Under the pieces are notes generated by a model, which saw only the letters and a list, made by a program, of their open reading frames with translations, was not told where the DNA came from and did no database searches. A program made the translations under genes and the position numbers. A stretch of 64,000 nt of DNA from Nocardioides sp. IC4_145 (GTDB lineage Bacteria > Actinomycetota > Actinomycetes > Propionibacteriales > Nocardioidaceae): contig NZ_JAANMS010000002.1 of assembly GCF_011250565.1 (NCBI RefSeq), positions 124,001-188,000 on the forward strand. Reading direction: 5' to 3'. Shown in pieces: positions 5,006-9,074 of this stretch; within the stretch, counting starts at the first letter, position 1, and every line of letters starts with the position of its first letter.

Positions 5006-5533
5006 TCAGCTCCGCTGGGCCGAGCTCCCGGCGCCATCCTGCGAGGTGTCCGGGCTGGAGTCCTGCGTGGTGCCGGGGGAGGTGTCGTCGGGCTGCCCGT
5101 CGCCGTCGAAGTCGGGTGCCTCCCCCGAGGGCGAGCTGCCGTCGCGTTGCCCGTCCTGGCCGGTCAGCGGGCCGCCCATCCGGCCGTCCTGCGGACCGTC
5201 GAAGCCCTCACCGTCCGGGCCGAGGCCCGGCCCCTGGTGGCTGGGGTTCGTCTGCTCCGTGTCGTGGCTCCCGAGGGCGTATCCCGTGCCGAAGCCCGCG
5301 CCACCGACGACCAGGGCAGCAGCCGCGGCCGTGGCCGCCACGGCGACGCGTCCACGCGGGCGGCGGCGCAGGACGCGGGCGAGCCGACCGTTCTTGCCGG
5401 ACGACACGGTGGTCTGCTGGGGGTTGGAGGCGAGCCCGGGGTCCTGCTGGGGGTCCGGGGGCTGCGTGCCCGGGGGCTCGGCGTCGTCGTGCTGAGGGTC
5501 TTGGTGCTGGGTGTCCTGGTGGTGGTTGTCCAT
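5006..5533 (-). CDS. Single-pass membrane protein with His/Gln-rich N-terminus and acidic Gly/Asp/Pro-rich C-terminal tail
   Basis: Unrecognised 175-residue protein. Residues 1-60 are hydrophilic and rich in H, D, Q and P, ending in a basic stretch (RLARVLRRRPRGR); residues about 62-90 form one alanine/valine-rich membrane segment; the rest is an acidic low-complexity tail. Basic residues before the segment put the N-terminus inside and the tail outside. The tail holds DFDGDGQPDD, which resembles a thrombospondin type-3 or dockerin calcium loop. It follows the DUF4353-like lipoprotein gene on the same strand with a 50-base gap, so the two are probably co-transcribed. The low complexity means composition, not homology, drives most database matches. 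Confidence 0.75.
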   Translation of the reverse strand: MDNHHQDTQHQDPQHDDAEPPGTQPPDPQQDPGLASNPQQTTVSSGKNGRLARVLRRRPRGRVAVAATAAAAALVVGGAGFGTGYALGSHDTEQTNPSHQGPGLGPDGEGFDGPQDGRMGGPLTGQDGQRDGSSPSGEAPDFDGDGQPDDTSPGTTQDSSPDTSQDGAGSSAQRS

Positions 5534-5583
5534 GGTCGCTCTCCTGTGAGTGGTGGTTCCGTGCGGGCGGGTCGAGCCGGCGC

Positions 5584-7077
5584 TCAGCGGCCGGCGGGGC
5601 GGTGGCCGGCGGGGGCCTCCCCGGCGGTGACGGTGGTGGAGCCGCCGGCGACGGTGACGGTGTAGTCCTGGCCAGGGCTAATGCCGACGGAGGAGAAGAC
5701 GACGGAGGCGGAGTCCTTCGGGACCGTGTAGGCCGCGAGCTCGGTGCCGTCCTCGTCCGCGATCGTGACTCGTGAGCCGGCAGTGGCGGTCGGTTCGAGG
5801 GTGGTCGCGATCCAGCCCTGGCCCGACTCGGTCGACGGTGCCACCAGCATCCCGGCGCTGCCGACGGCGAAGAGGGTTCCGCCGGTGATCTCGAAGGTGT
5901 CGTTGACGTCGAGGGCTCCGTTGCCGTCGCTGGTAGGGCCGTAGACGATTAGGTCGCCGCCGGTGAGGGTGGCGTTGCCGTTGGAGTCCAGCCCGTCACC
6001 GCTTGCCCAGACCTCGAGGGTTCCGCCGTTGACGACGAGGTTGAGCGAGTCGTCGGCCGCCATGGAGCCGCCGCGACCCGCGTCCGGGGGGCCGCCGGTG
6101 CCGTCGGTGCTGGCGCTGTCGTCGGAGGTGGCGACGTTGACGCCGTCGTCGGCGGAGTGCAGCTCGATGTCGCCGCCGTCGATGATGATCAGCGAGCCCT
6201 CCATGGCTTCGGTGGAGCCGGCGACGTCGATCGTGCCGCCGGCTACGAGGACCTGGACGCCCTTGATGCCGTCGTCCTGGGAGCTGACCTCGACGGAGCC
6301 GTGCTCGACCAGGACGAACCCGGACCCGGGGTCGGTGGTGTTGTCGGACTTGATGCCGTCGTCGACGGCGTCGACCGCGATGTCTCCGCCGCTGATCGCG
6401 AGGTAGTCCTTGCCGATGATGCCGTCGTCGACGGCCGTGACCTCGATGGTTCCGCCGGTGATGACCAGGCCGTCCTTGCCGACGATGCCGTTGTTGGTGT
6501 TGCCGGTGACGGCGAGGGAACCGGTGCCGCCGATGGTCAGGTCAGCGGTCGAGTAGAGGGCTGCGGTGGGGGCGTCCTCGGAGGTGTCGGCGTACGACGT
6601 CGCGTCGGCCAGCATGTTGGTGCTGCCATCGGCCATCACGACCACCACCGACTCGGCGTCCACGATGTCGACGGCTGCGGTCGTCTCGGAGGTGATGGAG
6701 ACGTCGTCGAGGACCAGGCGTACGACGCCGTCGCCCGCGCTGTCGACGACGAGCTGGCCGTCGAGCTCACCACTCACCCGGTAGGTCCCGGGAGCGCCGA
6801 TGGTGACGGTGCCGGCCCGGGAGCTGACAGCCTCGCTGTCGGTCTCCGCGCTCGCCCCGGCGAGGGTCACGTCGACCACCTCCAACCCGTCGTAGGACGT
6901 GTCACCGGTCTCGACGTCGATGTCGTCCGCCAGGGCGTCGGCGACGGTGGTGGCGTCAGTGAGAGCCACGGTGGACGTCGTGGTGGTGTCGGTGGTCGCG
7001 GCGGGCGTGCTGCAGCCGGTCAGGACGGCGGCGGCCGCGGCACCGGCGATCAGCCGCCGGAGGTTCTGGAGTCGCAT
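5584..7077 (-). CDS. Lipoprotein with repetitive beta-solenoid carbohydrate-binding domain (DUF4353 / Cthe_2159-like)
   Basis: A 497-residue exported lipoprotein: signal peptide with lipobox LTGC (C22), a Thr/Asp-rich spacer, then from about residue 80 to 440 many short repeats built on GGxIxVxAxDDGI units (for example TAVDDGIIGKDYL and DAVDDGIKSD), ending in a small beta domain. This is the pattern of the Cthe_2159/DUF4353 family, a right-handed parallel beta-helix first described as a polysaccharide- and calcium-binding protein. Its function here is unknown. It is divergent from the DUF4956 - VTC gene pair, a grouping also seen with CotH kinase-like proteins in other bacteria. The signal peptide (MRLQNLRR) resembles that of the FAS1 lipoprotein at 22559. 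Confidence 0.85.
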   Translation of the reverse strand: MRLQNLRRLIAGAAAAAVLTGCSTPAATTDTTTTSTVALTDATTVADALADDIDVETGDTSYDGLEVVDVTLAGASAETDSEAVSSRAGTVTIGAPGTYRVSGELDGQLVVDSAGDGVVRLVLDDVSITSETTAAVDIVDAESVVVVMADGSTNMLADATSYADTSEDAPTAALYSTADLTIGGTGSLAVTGNTNNGIVGKDGLVITGGTIEVTAVDDGIIGKDYLAISGGDIAVDAVDDGIKSDNTTDPGSGFVLVEHGSVEVSSQDDGIKGVQVLVAGGTIDVAGSTEAMEGSLIIIDGGDIELHSADDGVNVATSDDSASTDGTGGPPDAGRGGSMAADDSLNLVVNGGTLEVWASGDGLDSNGNATLTGGDLIVYGPTSDGNGALDVNDTFEITGGTLFAVGSAGMLVAPSTESGQGWIATTLEPTATAGSRVTIADEDGTELAAYTVPKDSASVVFSSVGISPGQDYTVTVAGGSTTVTAGEAPAGHRPAGR

Positions 7078-7249
7078 GGGGGTGTGCCTCTCGGGACGGG
7101 TTCACGCCGCGCGCGGCGGCCGGTGGGAGGGAGCGTGGCCAGCGCACCTGTCTGCCCGGTGGCGTGGCTCTGTGCGGTCCCTGTGAGATCGGGCCAGGAC
7201 CCGGAACGCCGCTCGCGGTTCGGCGGGTCCCGGGCGACGCGCTCGGCCG

Positions 7250-7271
7250 GGTTCACAGGCTTGGCACAGCG
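7250..7271 (+). promoter_or_regulatory. Two 11-base direct repeat units upstream of DUF4956
   Basis: GGTTCACAGGC is followed directly by TTGGCACAGCG, sharing CACAG at an 11-base pitch, about 70 bases before the DUF4956 start. The first unit resembles the GTTCACC half of actinobacterial PHO boxes, which matters because the operon ends in a VTC-type gene. The second unit is a poor match, so the assignment is weak. Confidence 0.25.
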
Positions 7272-7341
7272 CCGGGGAAGGAGGCGGACAGAAGTCGCGG
7301 CGAGCCTCGGGGGACATCCGAACGACCCGGAGGGACTCCGC

Positions 7342-7941
7342 ATGAACACCTACCTGCTCGCCGGCGCCGACATCGTCGCCGTCCTCGTCCTCTCACTCGC
7401 CGTGTACTTCCAGCGGCACCGCCGCGGTGACCTGGTGACCGCCTTCGTGGCGGTGAACGTGGGTGTCCTGGCGGTGACGATCGCGCTCTCGAGCAGCGCG
7501 GCGACGGTGGGACTGGGGCTGGGACTGTTCGGCGTCTTGTCGATCATCCGGCTCCGGTCTGCCGAGCTCGGGCAGCACGAGATCGCCTACTACTTCGCGG
7601 CGTTGGCGCTCGGCCTGCTCGGCGGGCTGGGCGCCGGGGCACCAGGGCTCGCGGTCACGCTGATGGCGTCGGTGGTCGCGGCCGTCGCTGTCGCGGACAG
7701 CTCCATGCTCCAACGCGGCGCCCGGCAGCAGGTCGTGGTGCTGGACTCGGCCATCACCGACGAGGACGCGTTGGTCGAGCGCCTCGAGCTGGTCCTGGAC
7801 GCGCGAGTCCATCGCGCGGTGCCGCTGCGGGTGGACCTCGTCAACGACGCCACCACGGTCGACGTCCGCTACGTCCACGCTCCCCGCCCCACGATGACGG
7901 CGTCCGAGCGCAGTGCCGCGAACGTCCTCGTCACCCGCTGA
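7342..7941 (+). CDS. DUF4956 family integral membrane protein
   Basis: A 199-residue protein with four hydrophobic segments in its first 120 residues (DIVAVLVLSLAVYF; FVAVNVGVLAVTIALSSS; the glycine-rich GLGLGLFGVLSIIRLRS; AALALGLLGGLGAGAPG and the following VTLMASVVAAVAVAD) and a soluble C-terminal domain of about 75 residues. The IIRLRSAELGQHEIAYYF motif is the conserved DUF4956 signature. ATG at 7342 has GGAGGG about eight bases upstream. The VTC-type gene starts fourteen bases after its stop, so the pair form an operon. DUF4956 proteins have no proven function; their steady link to VTC domains suggests a membrane partner for a polyphosphate-handling enzyme. Confidence 0.9.
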   Translation: MNTYLLAGADIVAVLVLSLAVYFQRHRRGDLVTAFVAVNVGVLAVTIALSSSAATVGLGLGLFGVLSIIRLRSAELGQHEIAYYFAALALGLLGGLGAGAPGLAVTLMASVVAAVAVADSSMLQRGARQQVVVLDSAITDEDALVERLELVLDARVHRAVPLRVDLVNDATTVDVRYVHAPRPTMTASERSAANVLVTR

Positions 7942-7954
7942 CGAGGGCTGCGAG

Positions 7955-8734
7955 ATGGATCCGATCGCACACCTGCCTGCCGTGGGGCTCGACGAGCTCA
8001 ACACGACCTCGCAGCTGCTGATCCGCACCGACCGCAAGTACGTCGTCCCGCTGACCGAGCTGCCTGCGGTGATCACCGGCGTCGATGGACTGCGGGTGCT
8101 CGAGCTGGCCGGCTCCCGACGGGCTCGCTACGAGTCGACCTACTTCGACACCACCACGCTCGCCAGCTGGGCGGCCTCCGCCCACCCGCGCCGGCGCCGC
8201 TGGAAGGTCCGCACCCGCCTCTACGCCGACACCGGCGAGTGCTGGCTGGAGGTGAAGACCCGGGGCGCGCGTGGGGCCACGGTCAAGGAGCGGATCCCGC
8301 ACGACGCCGCGGACCGGGACGACCTCACCGGCCAGGCCGCTGGTTGGGTCGGTGATCGCCTGGCCGCGGCAGGCGCCCCAGACGTCGACGCCCGCGAGCT
8401 GGTCGCCACGCTGCACACCAGCTACCGGCGGACGACCCTGCTGCTGCCCAACGGAGCGGGCCGGGCGACGATCGACGCCGACCTGTCCTGGACCTCGAGC
8501 AACGGTCGCGCCCATGTCGGCGAGGTGCTGGTCATCGAGACGAAGTCAGCGGGCCGCGCGGCCGGGGCACTCGACCGGAGGTTGTGGCAGCTCGGTCACC
8601 GGCCGGCTCGGATCTCCAAGTACGGCACCGGTCTGTGCCTGCTGACCCCGGAGCTTCCGAGGAATCGCTGGCACCGTGTGACGGCCCGCCAGCTGGACCC
8701 GACGCTCTGCATCCTTGTGGGCTCGGCCCTCTGA
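7955..8734 (+). CDS. VTC-domain (polyphosphate polymerase-like) protein
   Basis: A 259-residue single-domain protein of the VTC/CYTH-like triphosphate-tunnel superfamily, which in yeast Vtc4 polymerises ATP phosphate into polyphosphate. Tunnel motifs seen: RTDRKYVV near residue 26, YFDT, RRWKVRTRLY near 75, WLEVKTR near 92, TIDADLSW and VIETKS in the C-terminal half, and ISKYGTGLC at the end. These supply the basic and acidic residues expected inside the tunnel. The ATG at 7955 with GAGGG upstream is preferred over an in-frame ATG at 7913 inside the previous gene. No separate membrane segment, so the adjacent DUF4956 protein may tether it. Enzyme activity is inferred. Confidence 0.88.
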   Translation: MDPIAHLPAVGLDELNTTSQLLIRTDRKYVVPLTELPAVITGVDGLRVLELAGSRRARYESTYFDTTTLASWAASAHPRRRRWKVRTRLYADTGECWLEVKTRGARGATVKERIPHDAADRDDLTGQAAGWVGDRLAAAGAPDVDARELVATLHTSYRRTTLLLPNGAGRATIDADLSWTSSNGRAHVGEVLVIETKSAGRAAGALDRRLWQLGHRPARISKYGTGLCLLTPELPRNRWHRVTARQLDPTLCILVGSAL

Positions 8735-9074
8735 GCGCAACGCCGCGCGGGCTGGGCCGCCCGCGCCGGGGGGTGCCGAGCATCCATCCCGAAACGGTGG
8801 TCGCCGATCGCTCGACATGGCGGGGGCAGTGAAGCCACGATGAACGACTATGTCGTTTCAAAAGGTCGGCGTCCGATATGGCCGCCGCCGAACCGAGCGG
8901 AGAGTGGCGATGGCTGGCGCACAACTGGCGCATAGGTCGTTCCGTCAGGTGCGCTCCGGTGCTGGTCGGTGCAACGCCGCAGTCCGAGCTTGCACAGCGG
9001 CGGGCCCGATCCCGCCTCAACTTGTCCCGAGGTCACGGCTCCGCTCGACAAGCTTGACCTGCGAAAACGTGGCC
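8735..9074. other. 340-base intergenic stretch between convergent genes
   Basis: Apart from the terminator at 8745-8766 and a weak CTTGTC...GACAAG inverted repeat near 9029-9056, I see no gene. Short frames (such as a 31-codon frame from 8840) have no ribosome site or -10 element. Base composition is locally less GC-rich than the neighbours around 8840-8880. Confidence 0.5.
8745..8766 (+). terminator. Hairpin terminator after the VTC gene
   Basis: GCGCGGG, eight-base loop, CCCGCGC: a perfect seven-pair stem ten bases after the VTC stop codon. Confidence 0.55.

Follow-up and report, generated by a model that had tools for sequence, protein, structure and literature searches.

We analysed a 64-kb stretch of the genome of Nocardioides sp. 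IC4_145 (positions 124,001 to 188,000 of contig NZ_JAANMS010000002.1, here C33), referred to as the window, and in it four adjoining genes for a VTC-domain protein, a DUF4956 membrane protein, a Cthe_2159-type beta-helix protein and an acidic protein with one transmembrane segment (Table 1). The results suggest that VTC and DUF4956 form a membrane-coupled polyphosphate polymerase module with exchangeable surface proteins and two-component control, a reading that we consider probable. An earlier note, made from the letters of this DNA, had interpreted the block as a possible membrane polyphosphate system, and this interpretation is partly supported.

In the proposed mechanism, a VTC4-type tunnel in the soluble VTC protein would convert ATP to polyphosphate, and the protein would dock on DUF4956, whose conserved charges, R70 and R72 above all and also R25, R28, D30 and E80, would lie on the cytosolic face. 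DUF4956 would take the chain and move polyphosphate into or across the membrane. On the outer side, the product would be used or held by the secreted kinase CotH or by Cthe_2159 together with the acidic membrane protein. For Nocardioides, we propose that a linked OmpR-type system activates the Cthe_2159-acidic pair, DUF4956-VTC(-CotH) and the genes of the system itself via a CACAG repeat phased at 11 bp.

The VTC-DUF4956 pair

Coupling of the two families was assessed in a class sample (148 genomes) and a phylum sample (296 genomes) of Actinomycetota, with four positive genomes common to both. VTC was present in 20 genomes of the class sample and DUF4956 in the same 20. In the phylum sample, all 32 genomes with VTC were among the 33 with DUF4956, the extra DUF4956 lying below the cut-off. 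At the sequence level the pairing is nearly complete: 55 of 56 VTC matches adjoin DUF4956 on the same strand, with 93-360 bases between the matches, and 55 of 56 DUF4956 places have an adjoining VTC. DUF4956 comes first in 31 of the pairs and VTC in 24. The linkage claimed by the earlier note is supported. We also compiled a named set, the best 80 of at least 559 loci chosen by DUF4956 similarity and rich in Arthrobacter, Nocardioides and Micromonospora, and a six-frame hidden Markov model search found a VTC match beside DUF4956 in 75 of them. VTC distances and DUF4956 distances co-vary (r 0.96, 125 pairs), as they would in any co-inherited pair.

The VTC protein resembles the eukaryotic polymerase in fold and residues. 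The best match of the family profile in the PDB was yeast VTC4 (E 2.8e-11). When the structure model of the window protein (predicted local distance difference test, pLDDT, 92.7) was submitted to Foldseek, 3g3r (VTC4) was the best fold match (E 4.6e-13, TM-score 0.64), and the 13 best rows were Vtc4, Vtc3 or Vtc2 chains, ahead of any phosphatase. The equivalents of R264, R266, K281, K294, R373, E426, K428 and K458 (8i6v numbering) are invariant in 125 distinct proteins, that of R361 is kept in 124 of them, and those of R196 and K200 are kept in all 122 proteins reaching these positions. According to the earlier note, a VTC protein without triphosphate tunnel residues would speak against its interpretation; the VTC4 tunnel residues are kept, so this half of its refutation test came out in its favour. 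At E 0.1, Pfam found VTC as the sole domain of the 259-amino-acid chain, with no SPX or transmembrane domain, and the top 19-residue hydropathy was 1.15, with no transmembrane segment. The protein is likely cytosolic.

Phosphatases and cyclases of the triphosphate tunnel metalloenzyme (TTM) fold are reported to have a second metal site of acidic residues, which is absent from Vtc4 (PMC4641920). In our own mapping, two of the three acidic positions of this site are basic in the window protein (R24 and K197), as in Vtc4, and one is acidic, a pattern that tentatively points to a polymerase.

The model of DUF4956 (AlphaFold2; pLDDT 81.7, predicted TM-score 0.63) shows five helices followed by a C-terminal domain of ferredoxin-like fold. 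Two arginines, R70 and R72, are present in all 126 rows of the alignment (one row is a duplicate), and R25, R28, D30 and E80 in 102-109. The positive-inside rule would place these charges on the face towards the cytosol, at which a polymerase would dock. The channel of yeast VTC is lined with basic residues, and translocation depends on them (PMC9911596).

A profile of 26 DUF4956 proteins gave one match in the PDB, at E 0.8. The Pfam family MgtC (PF02308) was matched by four of 26 DUF4956 relatives (best E 2.5e-4), and by the window protein not at all up to E 5. When four divergent DUF4956 proteins were compared with MgtC by hhalign, the score was 96% (E 2e-9); mixed DUF4956 sets gave 68-71%, the window's type 43% and unrelated controls at most 0.1%. 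This suggests that DUF4956 is distantly MgtC-like, strongly so just for the divergent type. The similarity extends over the transmembrane helices and the C-terminal domain; the window protein has no GIGFLGAG-type motif of the kind used to pick MgtC proteins, and no MgtC was found in the host genome.

MgtC is linked to ATP, phosphate and magnesium. DUF4956 could accordingly be an MgtC-like regulator of one of these, with no pore, and VTC a regulated triphosphatase or another TTM enzyme, the fold family containing both phosphatases and cyclases. Position 26 of VTC would fit: it remains acidic in 117 of 122 proteins (D26 in the window, aligned with Glu-4 of AtTTM3 in our own mapping). We consider this alternative unlikely, given the two basic positions of the second site, the 13 VTC proteins heading the fold search, and the conservation in 125 of 125 proteins of an equivalent of the catalytic K458, a residue that can be mutated to little effect in a plant tripolyphosphatase (PMC4641920).

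Cthe_2159, CotH and the acidic protein

The gene for a surface partner beside the polymerase-like pair varies. Within four genes of 56 sampled cores, which include one VTC without DUF4956 (L056), Cthe_2159 was found in 18, CotH in 23, both in 3 and neither in 18. The corresponding numbers for the 80 named loci were 40, 38, 6 and 8. VTC adjoins 9 of the 11 Cthe_2159 genes and 7 of the 16 CotH matches of the class sample (positions compared by eye), and on a single FastTree tree of 94 rows, with support unweighed and labels unshuffled, at least seven changes between Cthe_2159 and CotH were counted. Judged from these sequences, the place of the surface partner can be taken by Cthe_2159, by the secreted kinase CotH, by both or by other proteins. 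An N-terminal hydrophobic segment was detected by crude hydropathy in 57 of 64 Cthe_2159 and 62 of 69 CotH proteins and in 11 of 128 VTC proteins, counts that fit partners at the surface and an enzyme in the cytosol. The earlier note was right that an extracytoplasmic partner adjoins VTC-DUF4956; its expectation that all four families co-occur consistently was not borne out. It had overlooked CotH and a two-component system with an operator-like repeat.

The Cthe_2159 protein of the window was called divergent in that note. It matches PDB 4peu over residues 78-302 at E 2.9e-35 and is not very divergent. The acidic protein does have the features ascribed to it: one hydrophobic segment (from residue 63), an isoelectric point of 4.4 and the motif DFDGDGQPDD. 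Eight such proteins, including the window's, were found in the fetched loci, confined to Nocardioides and to G104, a genome of the same family. Six carry PDFDGDGQPD, one PDYNGDGQPD and one neither. We read DFDGDGQPDD as a presumably calcium-loop-like D-x-D-x-D-G-x-x-D motif; a calcium role derived from the motif alone was set aside.

All eight acidic proteins are encoded beside Cthe_2159, even where VTC is missing, and the acidic protein therefore belongs to Cthe_2159. G104 has the pair without any VTC match in the genome, and in a Nocardioides genome (G136) the pair lies 40 kb from VTC. Together with the divergent orientation in the window, this might mean that acidic protein and Cthe_2159 are an independent surface system merely adjoining VTC-DUF4956. 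We hold this to be very unlikely: the 9 of 11 Cthe_2159 genes beside VTC-DUF4956 in the class sample speak against it, as does the same rare repeat in front of both window pairs. Moreover, in a Nocardioides metagenome-assembled genome (L078), the genes for HtrA, DUF4956, VTC, CotH, Cthe_2159 and the acidic protein stand in a row on a single strand; another gene comes next, and then a histidine kinase and a response regulator on the opposite strand.

The association of CotH, a polyphosphate polymerase domain and DUF4956 is already known from Gram-positive pel clusters (cotH-PPP-DUF4956), where these genes adjoin pelDEADAFG in streptococci, clostridia and bifidobacteria and CotH has been suggested to regulate Pel synthesis through phosphorylation (PMC7112168). 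Polyphosphate-polymerase-domain and CotH genes also occur in NELoc-2 of C. perfringens (PMC11677781), and Cthe_2159 binds cellulose and polygalacturonate (PMC6712302). The module could decorate or export a surface polysaccharide, with VTC-DUF4956-CotH as an exopolysaccharide accessory and Cthe_2159 as the sugar-binding part. In the window, however, no pel or glycosyltransferase gene was recognised among the neighbours (translations were read, few were scanned), and when the neighbours of 30 loci were clustered, the largest clusters were response regulators (17), histidine kinases (12) and Cthe_2159 (11), the smaller clusters being partly identified. A polysaccharide function is in our estimation decidedly unlikely. 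The window block differs from the pel clusters also in that Cthe_2159 can replace CotH, and the available part of the pel-cluster description mentions neither an operator nor a two-component system (PMC7112168).

If the polymerase module exports its product, polyphosphate could be the donor for CotH or a calcium-bridged ligand of the Cthe_2159/acidic layer, and it may feed back on the histidine kinase. This extension is speculative and rather unlikely; the feedback is proposed by likeness to the mycobacterial kinase MprB, for which polyphosphate was reported as a phosphate donor (PMC2258413, PMC3062566). The ATP source of CotH in the spore coat has been called unanswered (PMC7821199). If the idea is true, CotH would phosphorylate surface proteins with polyphosphate where ATP is unavailable.

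Two peculiarities of CotH proteins were observed. The VTC-linked CotH of L057 (gene 10, 731 amino acids) contains a long linker of serine and proline and, at its C-terminus, an additional domain, which we take to resemble a cellulose-binding module. The CotH proteins of L078 (gene 13), L051 (gene 13) and L010 (gene 9) have long acidic inserts, rich in Pro, Glu, Gly and Met and similar to the acidic protein's tail.

The CACAG repeat and the linked two-component system

CACAG-N6-CACAG, a direct repeat whose period is 11 bp, was counted within 200 bp upstream of genes; L098, a second record of the L074 locus, was left out of the counts. It was found upstream of DUF4956 in 14 of 17 distinct Nocardioides loci and upstream of 9 of 209 other genes there; for other genera, the counts were 21 of 88 and 6 of 903. 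The control genes include divergent neighbours sharing a site. Fisher values for such counts take no account of relatedness, and among the named loci outside Nocardioides, 12 of the 18 with a repeat site are Arthrobacter. When seven Nocardioides upstream regions were aligned, both CACAG blocks were invariant and were followed, in the same phase, by an invariant AG and then an invariant CAG.

A strict form, YCACAG-N5-BCACAG, was shaped on DUF4956 sites, with two matches known at the time. It has four matches in the 4.27-Mb host genome, all in module loci, and a control pattern has one. The four sites lie upstream of the window Cthe_2159 gene, the window DUF4956 gene, a paralogous DUF4956 gene and a response-regulator gene on contig C37. 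Those not used in shaping are the site of the window Cthe_2159 and that of the C37 regulator gene, which is in a gap shared with HtrA. The looser repeat occurs twice in the window, both times in the gap between the divergent gene pairs, with a chance mean of 0.09; 2 of 100 shuffled windows reached two matches.

The repeat stands 86 bp upstream of both host regulator genes, the one on C37 and one at C33:117484-118161, approximately 6 kb before the window start. It was also found upstream of regulator genes in L068, L078, L116 and L130 and, in L106, L118 and L145, of CotH genes lying apart from the core. The kinases encoded on C37 and on the window contig (C33:118245-119699) share 62% identity, and in both host loci an HtrA-like gene (Trypsin_2 and PDZ domains) adjoins the response-regulator gene. 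Since the repeat lies upstream of Cthe_2159, both DUF4956 genes and the linked response regulator, these genes look like a small regulon, and we infer that the two divergent promoters of the window are controlled by the OmpR-type system, which would also control its own genes.

Several observations weigh against a polymerase module of this kind, in addition to the acidic position 26 of VTC. One genome (G095) has a VTC without DUF4956, and five named DUF4956 loci have no VTC match (L093, L102, L108, L122 and L151). Of these, L093 is truncated where its contig stops, and a short piece of VTC was called there; in L108 (8013-10582) and L122 (8007-10100), both contigs of metagenome-assembled genomes, Cthe_2159 is the next gene after DUF4956, and no VTC match lies between the two. 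The 18 sampled cores with neither Cthe_2159 nor CotH in reach lack the expected surface partner. Foldseek of the DUF4956 model against the PDB returned nothing at E ≤0.001, and the best row of a VIA search had Z 5.8, with unrelated rows; without a confident fold match, DUF4956 is no more than a candidate pore, and the scores of its model, given above, also count here. The repeat is missing upstream of DUF4956 in 67 of 88 loci of other genera and in the third copy of the host genome (L009), and in the later phylum sample it was seen upstream of 0 of 29 DUF4956 and 0 of 237 other genes. Regulator-kinase pairs within four genes of 21 of 56 sampled cores and 7 of 80 named loci were found with general profiles, without a chance rate. 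Finally, no assay of a bacterial VTC-domain protein was among the titles listed in searches of the open-access literature.

A record titled Sporosarcina beigongshangi (Bacillota; L130) has the same module layout and repeat as Arthrobacter L116. This assembly is possibly mislabelled or contaminated.

Window layout, host copies and known systems

All four open reading frames of the block were found as the earlier note had placed them. They adjoin each other, as it had said, but as two divergent pairs flanking a 264-bp intergenic gap, and a single four-gene operon is ruled out. Genes were called by a custom script; starts, including the likely ones of DUF4956 and VTC, and some short genes are uncertain. 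No sigma-70 promoters or terminators were found in 6900-8900. A plasmid-borne module was rejected, as DUF4956 matched just 2 of 72,556 plasmid records (E 1e-3).

Table 1. Features of the module in the window (window coordinates).
Feature	Position	Strand	Evidence
Acidic protein with one transmembrane segment, 175 amino acids, directly after the Cthe_2159 gene	5006..5533	-	Open reading frame; 8 such proteins beside Cthe_2159; no Pfam family above cut-off
DFDGDGQPDD, residues 141-150 of the acidic protein	5084..5113	-	Kept in 7/8 acidic proteins
Cthe_2159 beta-helix protein, 497 amino acids, N-terminal lipobox-like LTGC	5584..7077	-	Pfam PF14262 (E 4e-67, 226.7 bits, cut-off 25.8); PDB 4peu
Operator-like direct repeat TCACAG-N5-GCACAG, ~93-109 bp upstream of the Cthe_2159 start	7170..7186	-	
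Operator-like direct repeat TCACAG-N5-GCACAG, ~73-89 bp upstream of the DUF4956 start	7253..7269	+	
DUF4956 membrane protein, 199 amino acids, five helices and ferredoxin-like C-terminal domain	7342..7941	+	Pfam PF16316 (E 5e-52); model
VTC-domain tunnel enzyme, 259 amino acids, likely cytosolic	7955..8734	+	Pfam PF09359 (E 6e-19, 69.1 bits, cut-off 23); fold, residues, hydropathy

The host genome (4.27 Mb, 103 contigs) contains three VTC-DUF4956 pairs. On contig C37, the window layout of acidic protein, Cthe_2159, DUF4956 and VTC recurs, and an HtrA-like protease, CotH, a response regulator and a histidine kinase are encoded there as well. In this copy, VTC is split over two frames close to its start (L010:8602-9415, C37 approximately 15.6-16.4 kb), by either decay or a draft error; the adjoining CotH frame is open. 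In the third pair, on contig C65 (L009:6638-13908), a 1640-amino-acid PKD protein precedes DUF4956 and a response regulator follows VTC. The same layout was found in genome G063 (L061:3289-10509), again without the CACAG repeat. Both Cthe_2159 copies of the host adjoin VTC-DUF4956; this family, known from PDB 4peu and 4phb, is thus tied there to VTC-DUF4956 and to the acidic transmembrane protein.

A close known counterpart is the eukaryotic VTC complex (Vtc4/Vtc3/Vtc1), with the same tunnel polymerase fold and residues and likewise a cytosolic enzyme with a membrane part. There, SPX and transmembrane domains belong to the catalytic chain, whereas the window VTC has neither and its membrane partner DUF4956 is a separate gene; control is by inositol pyrophosphates in eukaryotes and apparently by a two-component system here. 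By gene arrangement, a two-component system beside an HtrA-like gene, the module also resembles mycobacterial MprAB, which adjoins the HtrA-like protease PepD and whose promoter is bound by its own regulator (PMC2258413, PMC3062566). In the host, however, HtrA is divergent from the response-regulator gene, and the mycobacterial enzyme named in the available parts of these reports is PPK1. The C. glutamicum MprA motif TKTTAAGAAM is unlike CACAG-N6-CACAG, as compared by form.

Research on bacterial polyphosphate has centred on PPK enzymes (PMC10657179). The module described here links a VTC4-like enzyme with a membrane protein, secreted kinases, binding proteins and an apparently dedicated sensor with a findable operator. 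This makes both the role of VTC-DUF4956 and the phosphate donor of the secreted CotH kinase testable in soil bacteria that are harmless, and the putative operator could serve to turn the system on and to report its signal. The CACAG repeat upstream of module genes and the apparent small regulon are new in this analysis; a search of the open-access literature turned up nothing on the operator, on the regulon or on a link to MgtC (subscription papers and preprints lay outside the search).

A gene for a DUF3500 protein (PF12006) lies at C33:122497-123813, just before and at the window start.

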